Source: Aurantiacibacter gangjinensis (GTDB taxonomy: Bacteria > Pseudomonadota > Alphaproteobacteria > Sphingomonadales > Sphingomonadaceae). Taken from it: a DNA stretch of 64,000 bases. The notes under the pieces were generated by a model that was not told the DNA's origin, did not search any database, and was given only the letters and a program-made list of their open reading frames with translations. A program made the translations under genes and the position numbers. Shown here one piece after another: positions 3,839 to 13,544 of this stretch (positions within the stretch are counted from its first letter, which is position 1; every line of letters begins with the position of its first letter). The stretch lies in assembly GCF_001886695.1 (NCBI RefSeq), contig NZ_CP018097.1, positions 620,001 through 684,000 on the forward strand, read 5' to 3'.

Positions 3839-4031
3839 AATGTAATTTGGCGGGATGGGCTGATTTCAGGATGGTGGCTCGCAGGAGCCCTTCATGGCAG
3901 CGCGAAGTCTTCAAAGGACATCGTCAAGCTTTCTAACGTGTGCCGGAAATCCCCCAAGCGACCTTGTTGGAAGTCGCCCGTTCCGAATTCTGCGAACCGT
4001 GCTAACCCTCGATCGCTTTAGGGAGAATTGC

Positions 4032-6512
4032 GTGAACGAAGAAGGATTCCGGGACTGGCTTGAAAAGAATTACCGCAAGAATACGGTCCAGACAAAGATG
4101 TCCGAAGCACGGCAACTCAACCGAGCTTATGGCGACCTCGACCAGCTATACGACGAGGACGAGCTAAACGCTGTTATGAAGACGCTGCGCTATTCGGCGA
4201 GCGATAAGGCTGATGACAAACCGAACCCATCCAAGGTCCCGCTGGCGAGCGATCTCTATCGCGACCTAAGCAATCTGCGCACCACCGTGAATTATTACCG
4301 CCGCTTTCGCGGAGAAGGGACGGTCGCAAGACCGGACGTTCCGGCGGTGAACAAGGCGGTCGACGAATGCGAGGACGTCGGTTTCGACACATTCCTCGCG
4401 ACCTACGGCTTCGGCAAGAATATCGACTACTGGGTCCTGCGCAAGGGTAAGCGCTATCCCTCCAAGGCAATCTTCGGGGTCGCCCACCAATTCATGCCCG
4501 ATGGTGCCCCGCTCGACGGTCAGACCTCTAACGGAACGGATGCAAGGCTCCACCTGGAAAGCTTGGGCTTCGAGATCGTCAAGGGCGAGGCTGCGGGTGG
4601 CCCGACCCGACCTTTCGTACTGTTCGATGTGCAGGGAGCGGCGTTCCAGCCGGTCCGCAATGGTGGTTCGAAAGGCTCAATGTTCAAAGTCAAGCCCAAG
4701 GGCGCTAGCAACCGATCAGAGGATGCGCGCGAGGTCGCGACCCTTGCCGAGGTCGCACGCGCAATGCTGATCGAAGGTCTGCCCGCGCGTGTCCAGTCCG
4801 TCCACAAGGGCCCGGTCAATTACGTCGGTTACGGCAAGCAGAAGCTCGTCGCTTACGAACTCGACGCGGAAATCGCACAGGAGATCGGCGTGCCGCCGAA
4901 GGGCAGCGTCGAACAGTACGATAGCGAGGAAGATACGGAATACGGCATCATGGCACAGACCACCAACTTGATCCTTTACGGGCCTCCCGGGACCGGCAAA
5001 ACCTGGAGCACGGCGATCGAGGCCGTCAGGCTGTGCGATGGCGTCACACCCTCCTCTCGCGAGGATCTGATGCGGCGCTACCACGAGTTGGTCAAAGCGA
5101 GGCGGATCGATTTCGTCACCTTCCATCAGAGCTACAGCTACGAGGAATTCGTTGAGGGGATGCGCCCCAAGCAGTCTTCTACAGAGGGCGAGACGGGTGA
5201 AGCGAAGGCAGGTTTCTCGCTCGAACCCGAGGAAGGCGTGTTCCAACGCATCGCTCACCGCGCTGCCATCAGCCGCGGCGGACGCGGCGCCTTTACCATC
5301 GGCGACCGGCAGGTATTCAAGCTGTCGATCGGCGAAGCGGCCAATTCAGAAGACGATTACCTTTTCGAGGAAGCGCTCGAGGAGGGCCATATCCTCCTCG
5401 GCTACGACGATATCGACTGGAGCGACGATCGCTTCGAAGAGCGCGATGCGATCATCGCGGCCTGCCGCGAATACGATGTAGAGCATCCGGAGAATGACCG
5501 GCCTAGCCCGACAGCACGTACCGGTCGGGTCCAGTGTCCGCTCATCTTCCGCAACTGGATGGAGAAGGGCGACATCGTAGTAGTGTCGAAAGGCAATTCG
5601 CGATTCCGGGCGATCGGCGAGATCACCGGAGATTACGAATACGCGCCGCGCGAGAGCGGCGTCTATTCGCATCGACGCACGGTCGACTGGCTCTGGTTCG
5701 ACCAGACCGGCGCCCCGGTCGAGGACATCTATTCCAAGGGTTTCTCGATGCGCGCGGCGTACTTGCTCACCCGCGCCGAACTCGATTTCGCCGCGCTGGA
5801 GGGCTATATCAACAGCCAGTCGGCGGGCAGCGACGCGTCGGCGCCCGAGCCCTATGTGCTGATCATCGACGAGATCAATCGCGGCAATATCTCGAAGATT
5901 TTTGGCGAGCTTATCACGCTGATCGAGCCCGACAAACGCGCGGGTCGCATGAATGCGCTCGAAGTGCGACTGCCCTATTCGAAAAAGCCCTTCTCGGTTC
6001 CTCCCAATCTCCATCTCATCGGCACGATGAATACCGCCGACCGGTCGATCGCGCTGCTCGATACCGCACTCAGGCGGCGCTTCGTTTTCCGCGAGACCCC
6101 GCCCGATTCCGAGCGCCTTGGCGAGAATGTCGACGGCGTCCCACTGAGGCGCGTACTTGAGACGATCAACGACCGGATCGAATACCTGGTCGATCGCGAA
6201 CACCGCATTGGCCATGCCTTCTTTATCGGCTGTACGACCCGCGACGAGATCGACGCGGTTATGCACGACAAGGTCATCCCGCTCCTCCAAGAATATTTCT
6301 TCGAGGACTGGAGCCGGGTCGCCGCGGTCCTTGGCGGACCCAGCGGCAAGGGCGGCGGCTTCCTCGACTGCCGCATGCTCGGGGATCCCACCGGCCAGGA
6401 CGGAGAGGAGCGCGAGAGCTGGAGCGTGCGTAAGAAATTCGCGGGCGATGCCTATGCCAGGCTGGTCGGGACCGCTCCGGCAGAATCTCCCGAAGCCGAC
6501 GAGGTGGTGTGA
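4032..6512 (+). CDS. mcrB: McrB-like AAA+ NTPase with ScoMcrA-like head and inserted EVE-like domain
   Basis: This is the motor subunit of a modification-dependent McrBC restriction system. The chosen start is GTG at 4032, preceded by AGGGAG at six bases; an upstream ATG at 3894 adds 46 residues without visible homology. The order is: helical N-terminus (about 1-85, FRDWLEKNY type); a ScoMcrA-type head (about 115-180, WVLRKGKRYPSKAIFG and LESLGFEIV); a linker domain; Walker A GPPGTGK at about 317-323; Walker B LIIDEINRG from about 610; then sensor 1 and arginine finger (MNTADRSIALLDTALRRRF). The roughly 290 residues between Walker A and B are far more than usual. They contain an EVE/PUA-like domain (HILLGYDDIDW, GDIVVVSKG, IGEIT), predicted to read modified bases. 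The gene overlaps mcrC by four bases. Confidence 0.88.
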   Translation: MNEEGFRDWLEKNYRKNTVQTKMSEARQLNRAYGDLDQLYDEDELNAVMKTLRYSASDKADDKPNPSKVPLASDLYRDLSNLRTTVNYYRRFRGEGTVARPDVPAVNKAVDECEDVGFDTFLATYGFGKNIDYWVLRKGKRYPSKAIFGVAHQFMPDGAPLDGQTSNGTDARLHLESLGFEIVKGEAAGGPTRPFVLFDVQGAAFQPVRNGGSKGSMFKVKPKGASNRSEDAREVATLAEVARAMLIEGLPARVQSVHKGPVNYVGYGKQKLVAYELDAEIAQEIGVPPKGSVEQYDSEEDTEYGIMAQTTNLILYGPPGTGKTWSTAIEAVRLCDGVTPSSREDLMRRYHELVKARRIDFVTFHQSYSYEEFVEGMRPKQSSTEGETGEAKAGFSLEPEEGVFQRIAHRAAISRGGRGAFTIGDRQVFKLSIGEAANSEDDYLFEEALEEGHILLGYDDIDWSDDRFEERDAIIAACREYDVEHPENDRPSPTARTGRVQCPLIFRNWMEKGDIVVVSKGNSRFRAIGEITGDYEYAPRESGVYSHRRTVDWLWFDQTGAPVEDIYSKGFSMRAAYLLTRAELDFAALEGYINSQSAGSDASAPEPYVLIIDEINRGNISKIFGELITLIEPDKRAGRMNALEVRLPYSKKPFSVPPNLHLIGTMNTADRSIALLDTALRRRFVFRETPPDSERLGENVDGVPLRRVLETINDRIEYLVDREHRIGHAFFIGCTTRDEIDAVMHDKVIPLLQEYFFEDWSRVAAVLGGPSGKGGGFLDCRMLGDPTGQDGEERESWSVRKKFAGDAYARLVGTAPAESPEADEVV

Positions 6513-7795
6513 CGTACAGAACCGTTCGCGAATGGGAACGCATCGCGGTCGGCGATGGCGGTTTCACGCGGGGCGAGGCGAACACGCTGCTCGCAGCGGC
6601 GCGCGCGCATCGCCTAGGAGGTCGCGACGGAACCGACATCCTCTGCGACCATCACCGCTATCTGCGCGCGCAGCAGATGGTCGGGGTGATCGCCGGCGAG
6701 CGCTGCAGCCTCGAAGTCCTGCCCAAGGTCGACCCGGAGGCGCCGGTCGAGGACGAATCGAGCGTGCGCGGACAGCTGGTCCATATGCTCGACGTCTCAC
6801 TGGGCCTGGGACTTTCAACCGGCGAGACGAGTACCATGGCGCGCAAGGCGGAGTCGCTGCTCGAAATCTTCATCAGCGCTTTCGCCGAACGGCTGCTCGC
6901 CGAGGCGCGGCGCGGCCTCCCACGCCAGTATCTGCGCCACGAGGAGGACCTCAAGGCATTGCGCGGCACACTCGACGTGGTGCGGCAATTCACCGTCAAT
7001 GCCGTGCGCCCCGATCGGCTCGCCTGCCGGTTCGACGAACTCGATAGCGACATCCCGCTCATGCAGGTGATGAAGGCATGCGTGGTGAAGGTCGAGAAGC
7101 ATGCGCGTGCCGCCGCGACACGGCGCAAACTCGCCGAACTGCGCCTGATGCTCAGTGATGTGAGCGACATTCGTCCCGAAGCCCTGCCTTGGAGATCCGT
7201 CAGGATCGACCGGTCGAGCTTGCGCTGGCGCGCGTTGATCGAACTGGCCCGGCTGCTCCTAGGCCAGCAATGGCAGGACACGCGCGCCAGCGCGAGCGAC
7301 CCTGAGGGAATGACGCTGCTGTTCCCGATGAATGACCTATTCGAACGCTATATCGCGGTCCAGCTGCGGCGAGCGCTAAACGGCACTGGACTGGAAGTCG
7401 TCGCCCAAGGCGGCCATCGCCATTGTCTCGGACCCTGGAACGAAGGAACCGACTGTATCGGCGACAGCCACAGCACCCGTCCCGACATTCTTGTGCGCCG
7501 CGAGGGCGAGGTGCTGGCCGTGATCGATACCAAGTGGAAGCGGTTCGCCGATGGCATCGCGCAGGCCGATGCCTACCAGATGATGGCTTATTCGAGGCTT
7601 TATCGCTGCGACCGGCTGGCACTGCTATATCCGGCGGGCCACGGTGAATGGGTAGCAAGATCTAAAATTAGAGGCATTGCGTTTGGTCCTGAGCGGCTCG
7701 ACACCATCGCCATCCCCATGTCGGGCTCGGGAGCCGAGGTCTGCCAGACACTGGCTGAAACGGTCGGAGAGCTGTTTCTCGCTCCACCCGAGTAA
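6509..7795 (+). CDS. mcrC: McrC-like PD-(D/E)xK nuclease subunit
   Basis: A 428-aa protein starting at GTG within the GTGA overlap with mcrB, so translation is probably coupled. The N-terminal part has the McrC beta-rich region (LRAQQMVGVIAGERCSLEVLPK) and the middle is helical (ALRGTLDVVRQF, FPMNDLFERYIA). The C-terminus holds the nuclease core: D326 in RPDILV and D340-x-K342 in VIDTKWKR. In McrBC systems this subunit activates the McrB ring and cuts DNA after translocation. All catalytic residues are present, so the system looks intact. Confidence 0.9.
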   Translation: MTYRTVREWERIAVGDGGFTRGEANTLLAAARAHRLGGRDGTDILCDHHRYLRAQQMVGVIAGERCSLEVLPKVDPEAPVEDESSVRGQLVHMLDVSLGLGLSTGETSTMARKAESLLEIFISAFAERLLAEARRGLPRQYLRHEEDLKALRGTLDVVRQFTVNAVRPDRLACRFDELDSDIPLMQVMKACVVKVEKHARAAATRRKLAELRLMLSDVSDIRPEALPWRSVRIDRSSLRWRALIELARLLLGQQWQDTRASASDPEGMTLLFPMNDLFERYIAVQLRRALNGTGLEVVAQGGHRHCLGPWNEGTDCIGDSHSTRPDILVRREGEVLAVIDTKWKRFADGIAQADAYQMMAYSRLYRCDRLALLYPAGHGEWVARSKIRGIAFGPERLDTIAIPMSGSGAEVCQTLAETVGELFLAPPE

Positions 7796-7925: not shown

Positions 7926-8291
7926 TTGGGCATCACATCATTCCAAAAACGGGTTGAGAGCTGGCTAGAGGCCTGCTTTCCCGTTGCCGTCCGGTCCAAT
8001 CGCGCTGAACGGACGCATCGGTTTCTCGAGGAAGCGCTGGAGCTGGCACAGGCGAACGATTGTTCGCGTGAGGATGCGCTGGCGCTAGTCGATTACGTCT
8101 ACGAGCGTCCAGTTGGAGAACCGGATCTCGAAGTTGGTGGCGTCATGGTGACTTTGGCGGCTTTATGCAGCGCTTCTGGAATCAATATGGACGAGGCCGG
8201 CGACAGCGAGCTGGAGCGGAACTGGGATCGCATCGAGACGATCCGCGCGAAGCAGGCCGCCAAGCCCCATGGTTCGCCACTCCCGCAGTGA
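7926..8291 (+). CDS. MazG-like all-alpha NTP pyrophosphohydrolase
   Basis: A 121-aa protein starting at TTG; GGGGAG sits five bases upstream, which decides the start. The sequence RFLEEALELAQ followed by the GGVMVTLAALC helix has the spacing of the metal-binding E-x-x-E and later helix of MazG-type phosphohydrolases. These hydrolyse (d)NTPs to NMPs and pyrophosphate, often as housecleaning or phage-related enzymes. The canonical ExxD of the second motif is not clear, so activity is uncertain. It lies between mcrBC and the toxin-like gene, in the same direction. Confidence 0.6.
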   Translation: MGITSFQKRVESWLEACFPVAVRSNRAERTHRFLEEALELAQANDCSREDALALVDYVYERPVGEPDLEVGGVMVTLAALCSASGINMDEAGDSELERNWDRIETIRAKQAAKPHGSPLPQ

Positions 8292-8348: not shown

Positions 8349-8373
8349 TGTGCTAAACGTTTCTTTTAGCACA
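8349..8373. promoter_or_regulatory. Inverted repeat overlapping the toxin start codon (candidate operator)
   Basis: TGTGCTAAA (8349-8357) and TTTAGCACA (8365-8373) are perfect 9-bp arms around a 7-base spacer. The left arm contains the GTG start codon of the HigB-like gene. This is the size of site bound by an HTH antitoxin; it could also form an mRNA hairpin over the start. The repeat is seen directly; its function is inference. Confidence 0.5.
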
Positions 8374-8664
8374 AAAAAACTGAAAGCTATCTGCACGAAG
8401 ATTGAGGTGGCCCAAGCGCAACTCGGCCCGGGTGCAGCCGCAGAATTGCACGAGCTTTTGGCTGAAGCGGAGTCGTTTCTTACCGCCGACGAACTGATAG
8501 ATTTCCGAGGGGGCAAAATTGTGGGAGGGGATTCCCTTTTCTTCCCGTTCGGTCCACACTACCGGGCATCGTTTAAAGCGGTCGGCGAAGATCTGCCGCG
8601 CGATGTCGATGGTAGTGTCGCGTGGGGGAAAGTGCGTCGAATTATGCTAGTTGATATATCGTGA
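8350..8664 (+). CDS. HigB/RelE-like toxin
   Basis: A 104-aa protein starting at GTG with GAGGGG just upstream. The N-terminus VSFSTKKLKAICT and C-terminus DGSVAWGKVRRIMLVDI match the pattern of HigB-type (RelE superfamily) toxins, which are mRNA-cleaving ribosome-dependent nucleases; in many of them the chain starts with a conserved SFxTxKLxKxC strand-helix. It overlaps the next gene by four bases, as expected for a toxin followed by its antitoxin. Catalytic residues in this family are poorly conserved, so activity cannot be judged from sequence. Confidence 0.62.
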   Translation: MLNVSFSTKKLKAICTKIEVAQAQLGPGAAAELHELLAEAESFLTADELIDFRGGKIVGGDSLFFPFGPHYRASFKAVGEDLPRDVDGSVAWGKVRRIMLVDIS

Positions 8665-9764
8665 TGGCCACTGTCGAAGCTCAACTTCAAGAAAAAGACT
8701 GGTTTTCAAGGCCCGGCGATAGCGTGCTATCAGCGATGCGTCGGCGTAGCGTATCTGCCGGAGCGCTTGCAGAGCGCCTAAAGGGTGGCATGGAGCAACT
8801 TCGCGACTTGACCAGTGGCGTTGGCACCATCGACGAGGACACCGCTAACGCACTTTCGGCCATGCTTGGGGGGTCCACTGCCTTCTGGAAGACCAGGCAG
8901 GCGAAATATGAGGAAGCCTTGACCCACGCGGTCAATCAACTGTCGGACGAGGAAGCCAATGCTTGGTTGGACCGTATCCCTGCTCCCGGGAGCAAGGGAC
9001 GGATCACAGCGAAGAGGCGCTCGGCAGAACTCGAGCGTCGATTAGCATATTTCGGGGTCAGCACGCTGAAGTCTTGGGATGCGCGCTACGGGCCTCATCA
9101 GAGCCACGCCAGATTCCGTCGGTCGCTGGCATTCACCCAGCATGATGGCGCAACGTCAATGTGGCTGCGCGAAGGGGAGCTCGATGCCAATCTTCGCCTA
9201 ACGGCCGAGTGGTCCAGCGATGCACTTCGGGCCCGTCTCGAACAGATTCGTGCGCTGTCTAGGATCAGCAAGCCTAGCCGATTTATGCCACAGTTGGTGA
9301 CGATGCTTGCTGACGCAGGCGTTGCGCTCGTAGTCGCAAAGGCTCCGCAAGGTTGCCGCGCGAGCGGCGCAAGCAGAATGATTGCGCCGGACAAGGCGAT
9401 GATCCTGATGAGTTTCAGGCATCGTGCAGACGACCATTTCTGGTTCACGCTCTTCCATGAGATCGGCCATCTGCTTCTTCATGAAGCTTCATCCTTTGTG
9501 GATGCTGAGGGCATAGACGAGGAAGATTCTTGCGAAAAAGAGGCGAATGAATTCGCCGCTCGCATGATTGTTCCGGAGAAACGCGAGGCCGAATTGTTGA
9601 GTCTCGCCCCTACAGATGATGCAATTCGGAGATTTGCTGTCTCACTGGGGGTGGCACCAGGGCTTATTCTCGGCCAGCTGCAGCATCGCGGGATCGTCGC
9701 TCATGGGGCTCTGCGGCGGCTCCGCCGCCACTGGACGTGGGACCAAATCAGAGAAGCGCTCTAA
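8661..9764 (+). CDS. HTH (HigA-like) plus ImmA/IrrE metallopeptidase protein, probable antitoxin
   Basis: A 367-aa protein; GTG 8661 or ATG 8664 are both possible starts. The N-terminal part (about 15-80) looks like an XRE/HigA-type helix-turn-helix (GALAERLKGGMEQLRDL). The C-terminal part is an ImmA/IrrE peptidase with H266-E-I-G-H270 and a downstream acidic motif (CEKEANEFAARMIVP), giving the usual zinc ligands. Such proteins pair with HigB/RelE-like toxins as antitoxins or act as protease-regulators. Translation is coupled to the toxin gene through the overlap. Confidence 0.78.
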   Translation: MMATVEAQLQEKDWFSRPGDSVLSAMRRRSVSAGALAERLKGGMEQLRDLTSGVGTIDEDTANALSAMLGGSTAFWKTRQAKYEEALTHAVNQLSDEEANAWLDRIPAPGSKGRITAKRRSAELERRLAYFGVSTLKSWDARYGPHQSHARFRRSLAFTQHDGATSMWLREGELDANLRLTAEWSSDALRARLEQIRALSRISKPSRFMPQLVTMLADAGVALVVAKAPQGCRASGASRMIAPDKAMILMSFRHRADDHFWFTLFHEIGHLLLHEASSFVDAEGIDEEDSCEKEANEFAARMIVPEKREAELLSLAPTDDAIRRFAVSLGVAPGLILGQLQHRGIVAHGALRRLRRHWTWDQIREAL

Positions 9765-9797: not shown

Positions 9798-10724
9798 CTA
9801 TCCTTTGAAGTGCACGAAAGCAGTCGGGCTCTTTTGCCAGTTGCAAATCGCGTCTTCGAGCACCTCCATGCCCACCTGCAGGGTTGTATCTAGCTCATCA
9901 AGCCACTGTTGAAGTGGAACATACCCGGTGCCTGAATTCGCGTTGCCTGCGAACAGAAGGCGCATTCCTGCTTTCGGCCCGGTCGCTGTTTTCAAGTAAG
10001 CCGAGCCTGCCTCGGCCGGTGCGAAGCCATATCGCGAGAGCATCGTCGTCCAGTCGAACCGCCCCAACCGTCCATATCCTTTCACCGGAAGCGCCTTGTA
10101 GAATGCGTCGAAGATTACATTGGGATCGTTGCCGGCGGTCAGGATGATTTGAGAAAAAAGCGCTTGGTGGCCGCCAGCGGCGTTCACCCAGTTTACGTAG
10201 TCTACGACGGCTGGGCCCATAGCCCGCTGCTTGCTCGGATCGAGGCTCTCATACTTGCGATGGTTACCAAACTTGCCTCTTATCGATTGCCAGTTAGCTG
10301 CAAGCCACTGCTCGAATGCGGCAGGATTGGTGCTGCCAGCAGCCCAATCCCATCGCCCTTGCCCAAGCTTGCCGTAGATGTCGCGTAGTCGGCGCCACCC
10401 GTCGGTTGCGGGCTTACCGAGATGGACCATGAGGAAGATTAGCCATGCGGCTTCGTCATACGCATTCTGCTGAATAAAATGGACAACGCCGAGTTCCGCC
10501 TCAAAACTGTCATGGTGGGGATCAGCGCGCCTGGGGCTTATCGGCCCGCGCCGCTGGATGACCTGGTAATACTCCTCTCTTCGAAGGCTCGCCACGATCT
10601 GCATTGCAAGCGTATCGCGAGCGGCCAAGCCCGCGGAGCCCGGAAGCGGTCGAACCTGTTGGTGATGGGAGAGAAGCTGAGCGGAGATCTGCTGTTTGCG
10701 CGGCTGACGGCTGGGCCACTGCAT
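9798..10724 (-). CDS. Alpha-glutamyl/putrescinyl thymine pyrophosphorylase-like protein (clade 3 type)
   Basis: A 308-aa protein. It shows a set of motifs I associate with the AGPT-Pplase3 family: RRGPISPRRADP near the N-terminus, GNHRKYESL in the middle, GRFDWTTML, TGPKAGMRLLF, and LEDAICNWQKSP at the C-terminus. The family was described from comparative genomics of DNA-base hypermodification and belongs to a DNA-glycosylase-like fold; the reaction of clade 3 has not, to my knowledge, been shown. Its ATG overlaps the stop of the thymidylate-synthase-like gene by one base (TAATG), so the two are translationally coupled. No glutamyl- or putrescinyl-transferase gene is adjacent. Confidence 0.72.
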   Translation of the reverse strand: MQWPSRQPRKQQISAQLLSHHQQVRPLPGSAGLAARDTLAMQIVASLRREEYYQVIQRRGPISPRRADPHHDSFEAELGVVHFIQQNAYDEAAWLIFLMVHLGKPATDGWRRLRDIYGKLGQGRWDWAAGSTNPAAFEQWLAANWQSIRGKFGNHRKYESLDPSKQRAMGPAVVDYVNWVNAAGGHQALFSQIILTAGNDPNVIFDAFYKALPVKGYGRLGRFDWTTMLSRYGFAPAEAGSAYLKTATGPKAGMRLLFAGNANSGTGYVPLQQWLDELDTTLQVGMEVLEDAICNWQKSPTAFVHFKG

Positions 10725-11704
10725 TAGATATCCTCCGCCTTGTTGGCTTTCCGCATCCGCTCCGCAATGCGATCGCGTTGGTCTTCGATCGAAGAATGAT
10801 AGATATCACTATGCATTCTTACCGAAATTTCCTTGATGACCTCGTCGTCCTGTCCAGCGAAACTGATCTGTATGAGACTGCCGATATCCGACCAATAGGG
10901 ATCATTCAGGTCCCCGTTCGGATCGACACTCTTGCCGGCTCGAACCTTCTGCTCGAATGCGAGCAAATCGTCGATCTTCTTGAAGGGATTAGAGTGGGGC
11001 ATCGCCGGCATTTCAGCGGCCCGCTGGTAACCCTCCCTCCTGTATCGCTCGGCCCGGCCTCGGTCTCGGTCATATAGGTGCATACTGCCGACCATGTGGA
11101 TGTATTCGCCAAGTTCAAGCTTGAGTTCGGCAGCGACCAGCTCTTGGAGCATGGTGAAGCAGAACACATCATGCGGGAGGCCCAGATAGGCATCATTGGA
11201 CCGCATAGCCACCGACATGTGAAGGACACCGCCTCGACGATGGAACTGCAGGGTAGTGGTGCACGGAATATCAGTGCCATCATCTGCCAAAAGGTCCCTT
11301 GCTTCATAGAGCTGAATCACGCACCTGCGGCTGCCGTCTTTCCGCTGTAGTAATTCTATGGCCGCCTGGAGTTGGTCGAATCCGTGTCGCGACCTAATCC
11401 GAGGACCGTAGGCGCCGTTCACGACGGCTGGCTTTCCATCTTTTACATAGAAAGGAATGTACGGGCCGACGAAGGCCGCCTCGTCCGATCCAGATAGGTA
11501 CCAAAGGAGCTCGCCAAGGGCGCTAAATGGTCGCGCCCTAGTCTGCGACCGGCTTAGCCTAGCGCGCGGTTTGGCGATCCGCAGCGTCACGCCGAGAAGC
11601 TCAAGCGAACCTCCATTAGTGCTCACGTTATGCACGCCATCGTTCAGAAGGGCATGGTAAAGATCGTTGAGAACATCATCGAGACCCTCGCCAAGAAATT
11701 CCAT
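10724..11704 (-). CDS. Thymidylate-synthase-fold enzyme, likely dCMP-type (Asp at the base-selecting position)
   Basis: A 326-aa protein of the ThyA/dCMP-hydroxymethylase superfamily, with LGELLWYLSG, nucleophile C148 in IPCTT, RSNDAYLGLPHD and a C-terminal HMVGSMHLYDRD block. Two substitutions stand out. ThyA has PCH where this protein has PCT. The base-reading Asn of ThyA (GLPFN) is Asp179 here; in T4 dCMP hydroxymethylase an Asp at this position selects cytosine. The enzyme may therefore methylate or hydroxymethylate dCMP rather than dUMP. A TAGGAAA ribosome binding site precedes the ATG. It is transcribed with the pyrophosphorylase-like gene downstream and is probably not the housekeeping thymidylate synthase. 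Confidence 0.78.
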   Translation of the reverse strand: MEFLGEGLDDVLNDLYHALLNDGVHNVSTNGGSLELLGVTLRIAKPRARLSRSQTRARPFSALGELLWYLSGSDEAAFVGPYIPFYVKDGKPAVVNGAYGPRIRSRHGFDQLQAAIELLQRKDGSRRCVIQLYEARDLLADDGTDIPCTTTLQFHRRGGVLHMSVAMRSNDAYLGLPHDVFCFTMLQELVAAELKLELGEYIHMVGSMHLYDRDRGRAERYRREGYQRAAEMPAMPHSNPFKKIDDLLAFEQKVRAGKSVDPNGDLNDPYWSDIGSLIQISFAGQDDEVIKEISVRMHSDIYHSSIEDQRDRIAERMRKANKAEDI

Positions 11705-12003: not shown

Positions 12004-12357
12004 ATGCCTCCCTCCGATGATTCCCAGAAACTTGCCGCACTTGAGCACTTGCGCTCGAGGTTCACCAAGAAATTCGATGGAGGGCACGGGCTGCGACTGC
12101 AGCCTGACGAGCTGCTCGTATTCGTAGAAATCGGATTTCTAACGAGGCTGGATGAGGAGATTGCAGCCGAAAGGAAAAAAGAATGCGAAAGAAGAAGATT
12201 TACGAACGCGGCGACTACTACCTCGCATTCGACACGAACCCAGATGGAACGGCCCGCTCTAAAAACCTCTACATCTTCTATTACGACCGCGAAGGAGGAA
12301 GGGGTCGCAGCCATTCAACGGGCACGTCGGATCTCGAACTCGCGAAGGAAGAACTAG
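12004..12357 (+). CDS. Possible small protein upstream of and overlapping the integrase
   Basis: The first 60 residues (FTKKFDGGHGLRLQPDELLVFVEIGF) look like a real coding sequence, and GGGGAGGA precedes the ATG. The frame then runs 175 bases into the integrase gene in another phase, where its composition becomes Ser/Thr/Arg-rich and noncoding-like. Either a short real protein has lost its original stop or the upstream part is chance. It could encode a small recombination-directionality-type partner, but no motif shows this. Confidence 0.35.
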   Translation: MPPSDDSQKLAALEHLRSRFTKKFDGGHGLRLQPDELLVFVEIGFLTRLDEEIAAERKKECERRRFTNAATTTSHSTRTQMERPALKTSTSSITTAKEEGVAAIQRARRISNSRRKN

Positions 12358-13409
12358 ACCGCTTTTACGAGAAGCGGGAAAAGTCTCATAAATTCTGCCC
12401 CACCTGCGGACAGGCTTTCAGCGGCGAACTTCCGCCGCTTGTTGCCACCGCTATCGCGGAATACCTTGAGAGCACTGACTACGAGGCCGCCACTGCGCGG
12501 TTAGCTCACGTTCTCGCTTATCTCGAAGCCAAAGGCTTGGAAGACGCTCGATGCGACGAAATCAATGACGCGTGGGTAAAAAAATTCCGCAAGTGGGCAT
12601 CAGGGGTAGATATTGTCTCGCCTACCGGAAAGATTAGGAAACGTTCGCCGACGACGGTCGCGGCAAGCGTTTCGATGTTGCGCACAGCGATCAATCAAGC
12701 GTTCGAGAGCCGGAAGCTTCTGCATCGAGCAGCAATCAGCGTGAAGAAGTCCGAGATTGAGGGTAAATCCCCTTGGTTCCGAGCTTCGGAAAGTCAGATC
12801 ATCGGAATGTTTAGATACGCCCTGGCCTTGGACTTTCCGGAAAACTCCAGCGACAAACAGATACAGAAATGGAAGCGCGAGAGGAGCAATCTCCTACAAT
12901 ATCTTCGCCTCGGCGTAGCTACTTGGGCTCGGCCTGATGCAATCATGGATTTTTCAACGTCCGAAGAAGCCGAGCAATGGAACCCTGGAAATGGTTACAT
13001 CGAGCTCAATCCCTTTGGCCGCGAACAGTCGGAGAAGTATCGCCCTCTGGTTCGAGCTCCTCGACAGCTAATCCCTCTTCTGAATGAAAACGTCGGGAAA
13101 TTCGTCAAAAGTGCGTCCGTTCGAACTGCCTTTCGGCAGATGGCAAGCACACTTGGATTCCCTGACAAAGGTCAAAGCGGTGAGAAGCTCATTCGCCGCA
13201 GCACGGCTAGTCTAATACGACCTCTACTGGAGTCGAATGGTGCTTGGGAGAGTCAGGGGCGGCTGATGCTTGGCCACATCCGACCAAACGTTTCAGACAA
13301 GTACGCCACGCCTTATCATGAGGATTATCTCGTCGATGCGCTTCGCCTCACCGAAGAGTTGATCGACCGCATCGAAGCCGCCGCGCCAGGCGCGTTCTCG
13401 TTAAATTAG
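12183..13409 (+). CDS. Tyrosine recombinase (island integrase)
   Basis: A 408-aa phage-type integrase. The N-terminus (YYLAFDTNPDGTARSKNLYIFYYD) is an arm-type DNA-binding region and a CPTCG motif follows at about 75. The core-binding domain spans about 85-210. Catalytic residues visible are R250 (ATWARPDA), R338/R339 (LIRRSTAS, with Ile instead of the usual His before them), H365 (MLGHI) and the presumed nucleophile Y374 (SDKYATPY). AAAGGAAAA precedes the ATG. It reads toward tRNA-Arg 54 bases away, which is the probable attachment site. Confidence 0.88.
   Translation: MRKKKIYERGDYYLAFDTNPDGTARSKNLYIFYYDREGGRGRSHSTGTSDLELAKEELDRFYEKREKSHKFCPTCGQAFSGELPPLVATAIAEYLESTDYEAATARLAHVLAYLEAKGLEDARCDEINDAWVKKFRKWASGVDIVSPTGKIRKRSPTTVAASVSMLRTAINQAFESRKLLHRAAISVKKSEIEGKSPWFRASESQIIGMFRYALALDFPENSSDKQIQKWKRERSNLLQYLRLGVATWARPDAIMDFSTSEEAEQWNPGNGYIELNPFGREQSEKYRPLVRAPRQLIPLLNENVGKFVKSASVRTAFRQMASTLGFPDKGQSGEKLIRRSTASLIRPLLESNGAWESQGRLMLGHIRPNVSDKYATPYHEDYLVDALRLTEELIDRIEAAAPGAFSLN

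Positions 13410-13463: not shown

Positions 13464-13544
<81 letters not shown>

Follow-up and report, generated by a model that had tools for sequence, protein, structure and literature searches.

A mobile bacterial gene module coupling a predicted dCMP hydroxymethylase to an ADDT-family protein

Gene organisation and mobile setting

The window (the whole 64,000-nucleotide stretch analysed) carries two minus-strand genes that overlap by a single shared base in the sequence TAATG. The upstream gene (10724 to 11704) encodes a thymidylate synthase (TS)-fold enzyme of 326 residues (PF00303, E 2e-23), a predicted dCMP 5-hydroxymethylase; its key residues are R126, D145, C148 (within IPCTT), S169, D171 and D179 (within GLPHD). 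The downstream gene (9798 to 10724) encodes a 308-residue protein of the aGPT-Pplase clade 3 (aGPT3) and ADDT families (PF18746, PF18724). Both reading frames, their overlap and the residues C148 and Asp179 had been called in a first-pass annotation and are confirmed here. Convergent with this pair (operon A) lies a plus-strand gene (8661 to 9764) for an XRE (HigA-like)-ImmA/IrrE metallopeptidase of the M78 family with an HExxH motif (PF06114, E 5e-11). It is overlapped by the gene of a small HigB-like, RelE-fold protein of 104 residues (8350 to 8664, plus strand), assigned by hhalign; we call these two genes operon B. An accessory gene (7926 to 8291, plus strand) encodes a 121-residue protein that is possibly, on a weak match, MazG-like. 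A promoter and terminator scan gave matches at chance level only.

The window copy sits in an integrative element of about 24.5 kb (G000:C1:608997-633516, ending at window position 13516). The integration site is a tRNA-Arg(CCG) gene (13464 to 13540, minus strand), and the element is bounded by a 53-bp repeat (98% identical), a copy of the 3′ part of this tRNA lying 11 kb left of the window. Abutting the tRNA is a gene for a tyrosine-recombinase-like integrase (12183 to 13409, plus strand; PF13102, E 8e-6), which belongs to the element and lies outside the module described below. The cargo comprises an HsdRSM type I restriction-modification system, a MobA-like (relaxase-like) gene, the module and a McrB/McrC type IV restriction pair (3894 to 7795, plus strand; PF07728, PF10117). 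McrBC was considered as a module component and rejected, as no McrBC cluster recurs at other loci; it is a neighbour only. The same genome holds a second full copy of the module, about 50% identical (L003, G000:C1:1227500-1247000), near a large serine recombinase gene (L003:3918-5678). Other copies are found on plasmids, including a P1-like phage-plasmid, and on proviral contigs, and a search of 50,697 phage records gave no match. The first-pass annotation had placed the pair in a cellular defence island rather than in a phage. The type I system, McrBC, integrase and tRNA att sites bear out the island; "rather than in a phage" proved too strong, given the proviral contigs and the phage-plasmid. 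One viral contig of 118,644 bases has the module close to each of its ends (L103 and L104), a pattern that points to a phage-plasmid, similar to the Pantoea one (L028), assembled with terminal redundancy.

A conserved module

Using aGPT3 alone as the query, 57 loci were gathered from genomes, viral contigs and plasmids; both copies of this genome are included and some viral loci duplicate genome loci, so that independent cases number fewer than 57. The TS gene adjoins aGPT3 in all 55 loci that could be judged, the other two contigs stopping at aGPT3. The XRE-ImmA/IrrE gene likewise lies beside aGPT3 in 55 of 55 judgeable loci (two others are at contig ends), and it is convergent with the pair except in one rearranged locus (L011). 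In most loci the convergent genes end with their stop codons some 50 nt or less apart. The small HigB-like family is present in 50 of the 57 loci. The 121-residue accessory occurs in 13, the closest relatives of the window copy, and a gene for a 263-residue uracil-DNA glycosylase (UDG)-superfamily protein in 12, where it mostly lies between TS and aGPT3. Hosts span at least four phyla and include Proteobacteria, Actinobacteria, Bacteroidota and Leptospira (on a plasmid). The module is rare: in a class sample of 385 genomes one has aGPT3, and in a phylum sample of 349 four do, this genome being counted each time.

Co-evolution was examined in the 40 non-duplicate loci that hold all four genes. 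Pairwise protein distances correlate with r between 0.83 and 0.95, against permutation maxima near 0.2; for TS and aGPT3, r = 0.92 and the highest of 1000 permutations reached 0.21. The correlation shows co-inheritance of the four proteins, to which shared species history could contribute. Of the records in the plasmid collection, eight carry aGPT3, and these same eight give the best TS matches. The genome survey yielded three further genomes with aGPT3, of which two carry the module and one has a divergent orphan. The coupling of the pair that the first-pass annotation proposed is thus upheld, this orphan excepted. Together the TS and aGPT3 genes make up one half of a mobile module of four to five genes. 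Its gene families, active-site residues, co-inheritance and mobile, defence-rich setting are all computational observations. As two core operons plus two optional genes it forms a defined gene set that can be cloned whole. The orphan (L143:1651-2556) is about 31% identical to aGPT3, has neither TS nor ImmA neighbours, and is altered at T248, D291 and N295, positions that are otherwise invariant (SGP, EMEAICHWQK).

Active site of the TS-fold enzyme

Among solved structures the closest relative of the TS-fold protein is the CMP 5-hydroxymethylase MilA (E 8.5e-38); its best match to a thymidylate synthase (2e-16) ranks behind. The protein was aligned residue by residue with T4 dCMP hydroxymethylase (T4dCH, gp42), MilA, E. 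coli ThyA and gp51 of phage PaMx11. Asp-179 occupies the column of the base-reading Asn of ThyA (Asn177), as had been claimed from the sequence; this column holds Asp in T4 gp42 and MilA, and Asn in ThyA and PaMx11 gp51, so the site is of the cytosine type. In T4dCH, Asp179 reads and protonates cytosine and so selects it (PMC6400193). Residues C148, S169, D171, D179, H209 and Y211 are invariant across the 40 loci.

Three residues before the cysteine, T4dCH has Asp145, which activates the water for hydroxymethylation, and TS has Leu (PMC6400193). The window copy has Asp at this position; among its relatives 32 of 40 have Asp or Glu and 8 of 40 have Ser or Asn, so not all members need form hydroxymethyl products. 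A Ser/Arg versus an Ala/Lys pair sets the choice between dCMP and CMP (PMC5175136). The positions of Ala176 and Lys133 in MilA correspond to Ser169 and Arg126 here, the dCMP-type pair; position 126 is Arg in 31 of 40 relatives and Lys in 9. The one departure from T4dCH lies two residues before the active-site Tyr, where a Ser or Thr was sought and Gly97 stands in place of Ser94. The alignment places Gly at this position in PaMx11 gp51 as well, and the S94A mutant of T4dCH retains about 25% activity (PMC6400193).

Because D179, D145 and the Ser169/Arg126 pair are all present, we predict from sequence that the protein is a dCMP hydroxymethylase. Asp145 argues for hydroxymethylation and not methylation, and Ser169/Arg126 for a deoxyribose substrate, dCMP and not CMP. 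The PaMx11 enzyme provides a contrast case, since it is of the Asn type and is clustered with a 5-hmdU kinase homologue (PF18723) and the glycinyltransferase PUGT. The first-pass annotation had proposed that the pair makes or acts on a modified deoxycytidine nucleotide or base. This is sharpened here to dCMP hydroxymethylation; the ImmA/IrrE and HigB-like pair and the UDG-fold protein had been missed.

The aGPT3 protein

The clade-3 assignment of the first-pass annotation is borne out by a profile search: aGPT3 scores 426.5 bits on PF18746 (cut-off 25, E 6e-128) and covers positions 2 to 279 of the 279 in the model. None of the three findings that would have told against that annotation, an unrelated family, misalignment of Asp179 or lack of co-occurrence, was made. 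aGPT3 also matches the ADDT model PF18724 (213 bits, gathering cut-off 26.2), on which PaMx11 gp46 (PUGT) scores 97 bits. Homology between aGPT3 and PUGT is therefore well supported at the level of sequence families, this shared Pfam model being a stronger link than their hhalign match, which is weak (prob 16, E 0.0017) although colinear. The C-terminal E..(I/L)C.W motif aligns between the two proteins. Across 40 aGPT3 sequences nineteen positions never vary, leaving aside gaps in one truncated member; they include H155-R156, R219, F223-D224, T248-G249-P250 and E290-D291..C294-N-W-Q-K298.

A profile search of aGPT3 against PDB sequences found no relative. The AlphaFold2 model (pLDDT 91.4) is all-helical and gave no significant Foldseek match in the PDB. 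Against the viral library, the model best matches a phage protein labelled "Amino acid:DNA transferase domain" (E 5e-4). In VIA-align the top structure is PUGT (8z2m; Z 10.2, 218 residues, rmsd 4.1 Å), followed by a queuine-salvage DUF2419 protein (Z 9.3) crystallised with queuosine-5′-monophosphate. The HhH glycosylases MutY, EndoIII and OGG1 reach Z 5 to 9 against 3.6 for globins, values to be read in the light of the high chance scores of helical proteins. We regard the fold class suggested by the model as moderately supported. Phage ADDT enzymes act on a base activated by a 5-hmdU DNA kinase. The chemistry known to us for this family is on uracil derivatives, not cytosine, and we know of no cytosine hypermodification by ADDT or aGPT proteins. 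A search that does detect the kinase family PF18723 in PaMx11 gave no hit to it in this genome.

Operon B and the optional genes

The 367-residue XRE-ImmA/IrrE protein has a HigA-like N-terminus (TIGR02607 HigA, 1e-3), and its best PADLOC match is PD-Lambda-2_B (8.9e-24). The HExxH motif is kept in 40 of 40 sequences. PADLOC and Pfam scans of 25 of the small proteins gave no consistent family, and no relative among PDB sequences came up in a profile search with the small protein; the 104-residue family is related to HigB on the strength of hhalign (prob 90, E 1.5e-6), where unrelated controls remain below prob 1. PD-lambda-2 is a validated anti-phage system with three proteins, of which two are a HigB-like protein and an XRE-peptidase; the peptidase is toxic and the HigB-like protein relieves the toxicity (PMC9519451). 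As in PD-lambda-2/RosmerTA, the XRE-ImmA/IrrE gene of the module follows a HigB-like gene (PMC9519451). The third component, related to a P4 phage antitoxin, was not found: none of seven window proteins matches PD-lambda-2_C. Operon B therefore resembles PD-lambda-2 and is not a member of it; in place of the third component the module has the convergent TS/aGPT3 operon.

The 121-residue protein has a weak hhalign match to MazG (E 0.0055). Its family also resembles domains within larger phage proteins (PHROG 14118 and 8593), where function is unassigned.

The 263-residue protein is found only with this module and is lacking from the window copy. A profile search of its sequence against the PDB gave no relative. 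Its model matches the UDG superfamily fold: the best Foldseek hit is human TDG with 5-hydroxymethyluracil (E 3.7e-4), and VIA alignment with the superfamily gives Z 12.9 over 180 residues. It has a G-x-N-P motif of the GLNPS type, of which N47 is invariant. Removal of hmC or glucosyl-hmC from phage DNA by enzymes of the UDG superfamily is an established form of defence (PMC11078745, PMC13160076). The optional partner resembles Brig1 and Brig3, by comparison of fold, in its UDG fold and in having modified cytosine as the proposed substrate (PMC11078745, PMC13160076); the difference is that here the bacterium itself encodes the hydroxymethylase.

Proposed mechanism and alternatives

Hydroxymethylpyrimidines and the hypermodified forms derived from them serve phages as armour. 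We infer the following activities, order of steps, regulation and defence role for the module. In operon A the TS-fold enzyme would convert dCMP and methylene-THF to 5-hydroxymethyl-dCMP. aGPT3 would act on 5-hydroxymethylcytosine, as the nucleotide or once incorporated in DNA, and would either swap the hydroxyl for an amino-acid or amine group or cut the base out. The HigB-like protein and XRE-ImmA/IrrE protease of operon B would form a toxin-antitoxin-like sensor and switch that keeps operon A harmless until infection. The modified cytosine would then spoil replicating (phage) DNA, and in some lineages the UDG-superfamily protein would excise the modified base. To this general reading, a mobile and probably anti-phage module for infection-controlled synthesis of 5-hydroxymethyl-dCMP and its elaboration or excision by aGPT3, we give about an even chance. 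Its narrower form is a tentative suggestion that we think possible, if doubtful: aGPT3 would be a cytosine-type amino acid:nucleotide/DNA transferase, and the hypermodified product, a cell-made aminoacyl- or amino-methyl deoxycytidine, would serve under toxin-antitoxin-like control as a weapon against replicating phage DNA, joined in some lineages by the UDG-fold glycosylase.

The general reading draws on the conserved module, the presence of D179 and S169 in 40 of 40 sequences, the PUGT match of aGPT3 and the UDG-fold partner. The setting also speaks for it, with type I restriction-modification, McrBC, integrase, tRNA-Arg att repeats and a PD-lambda-2-like ImmA protein. Against it stand the uracil chemistry of known ADDT enzymes, Gly97 at the position of T4dCH Ser94, and the adjacent McrBC, since host DNA with hmC in it should be a target for cleavage by this pair. 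Such a neighbour makes conditional synthesis more plausible than a permanent presence of hmC in host DNA. The activation step is the main gap in the mechanism, the search of this genome having failed to find the PF18723 kinase. Hydroxymethylcytosine may be a direct substrate of aGPT3, or aGPT3 may use a phosphate supplied by another enzyme, or it may be a glycosidase.

If aGPT3 were an N-glycosidase of the free hydroxymethylated nucleotide, no DNA would be modified; dCMP/dCTP would be drained, or the modified base freed as a toxin or signal. That the closest solved relative of the TS-fold protein is MilA, whose product hmCMP is cut by the N-glycosidase MilB (PMC4081090), would fit such a scheme. 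So would the DUF2419 protein as second-best fold match, with its QNG1-queuosine monophosphate parallel, the possibly MazG-like accessory gene and the failure to find the DNA kinase in this genome. The sequence family of aGPT3 is however ADDT and not that of MilB or QNG1, and the UDG fold of the optional partner points to DNA as the substrate; we consider depletion at the nucleotide level rather unlikely. The pair might instead mark element or host DNA against nucleases, as phages do. To our knowledge every relative of aGPT3 that has been characterised takes part in the modification of phage DNA, and the module does travel on proviruses, plasmids and a phage-plasmid. Yet no gene for a dNMP kinase, DNA polymerase or 5-hmdU kinase recurs alongside, the McrBC pair adjoins the module, and toxin-antitoxin-like regulation together with a UDG-like excision partner fits conditional use better; we consider protective hypermodification slightly less likely still.

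A Brig-like role, in which aGPT3 itself attacks modified phage DNA (hmC or hmU) and the TS-fold enzyme makes a nucleotide that serves as ligand or activator, not as substrate, could call on the resemblance of the model to HhH DNA glycosylases and on the precedent of hmC-excising glycosylases directed at phage DNA (PMC11078745, PMC13160076). It leaves the constant presence of a catalytically complete hydroxymethylase unexplained, and the Brig proteins belong to the UDG superfamily and not to ADDT, so that we rate it very improbable. Least credible is a housekeeping thymidylate synthase or nucleoside-antibiotic enzyme that neighbours aGPT3 by chance. Plasmid records do carry the annotation "thymidylate synthase", and other MilA-like TS genes lie within nucleoside gene clusters; but no biosynthetic or transport genes recur here, the module is invariant and D179 is of the cytosine type. 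A canonical ThyA is encoded elsewhere in the same genome (341 bits), and the housekeeping role was rejected on this ground.

Related systems and further loci

The TS-fold enzyme can be set beside two known hydroxymethylases. With MilA, its closest relative of solved structure, it shares the Asp at the base-reading position and the Asp three residues before the cysteine; MilA, with Ala176/Lys133, prefers CMP, whereas here Ser169/Arg126 is found and no nucleoside antibiotic cluster. With T4 gp42 it has C148, D145, D171, D179 and the Ser/Arg ribose pair in common; T4 has in addition Ser94, other phage hmC genes and glucosyltransferases, where the module has Gly97 and an aGPT3 partner. PUGT (gp46, the 5-PmdU glycinyltransferase of Pseudomonas phage PaMx11) belongs with aGPT3 to the ADDT family and is its best structural match. 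They differ in that PUGT takes a phosphorylated hmdU substrate and PaMx11 has the kinase homologue, while aGPT3 is paired with a cytosine-type TS in a genome where the kinase was not found.

DefensePredictor lists an aGPT-Pplase domain in a predicted, unvalidated defence system, and TS and 5-hmdU kinase domains in validated systems, the TS one in E. coli (PMC13092281). Its main text does not link aGPT to a TS, to cytosine or to an ImmA/HigB module (PMC13092281); its aGPT-Pplase gene set may overlap with the module. We found no description of the cytosine-type pair, the conserved four-gene module or the UDG-fold partner in the literature searched. If the preferred reading, infection-controlled synthesis of 5-hydroxymethyl-dCMP, is true, the chemistry of phage armour would become a controlled cellular function in bacteria. 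For an enzyme family whose name refers to thymine, the work offers a testable prediction of the substrate, dCMP and not dUMP, and it puts ADDT clade 3 in a likely biochemical context.

Other TS genes were noted during the survey. On an E. coli IncHI1B plasmid (L034:3981-6912), four consecutive genes encode a metallophosphoesterase, an unassigned protein, MazG and a TS of the Asn (dUMP) type, a set that resembles domains validated by DefensePredictor. Firmicutes plasmid clusters L035 and L037 carry D179-type TS genes (two in L037) near AAA ATPase, PqqD-like, CYTH-domain and QueA-like genes, possibly a related nucleotide-modifying or peptide/nucleoside pathway. MilA-like (Ala/Lys) TS genes lie beside nucleoside 2-deoxyribosyltransferase genes on plasmids of Priestia and Streptomyces (L036, L038), and these are probable hydroxymethylcytosine nucleoside pathways.
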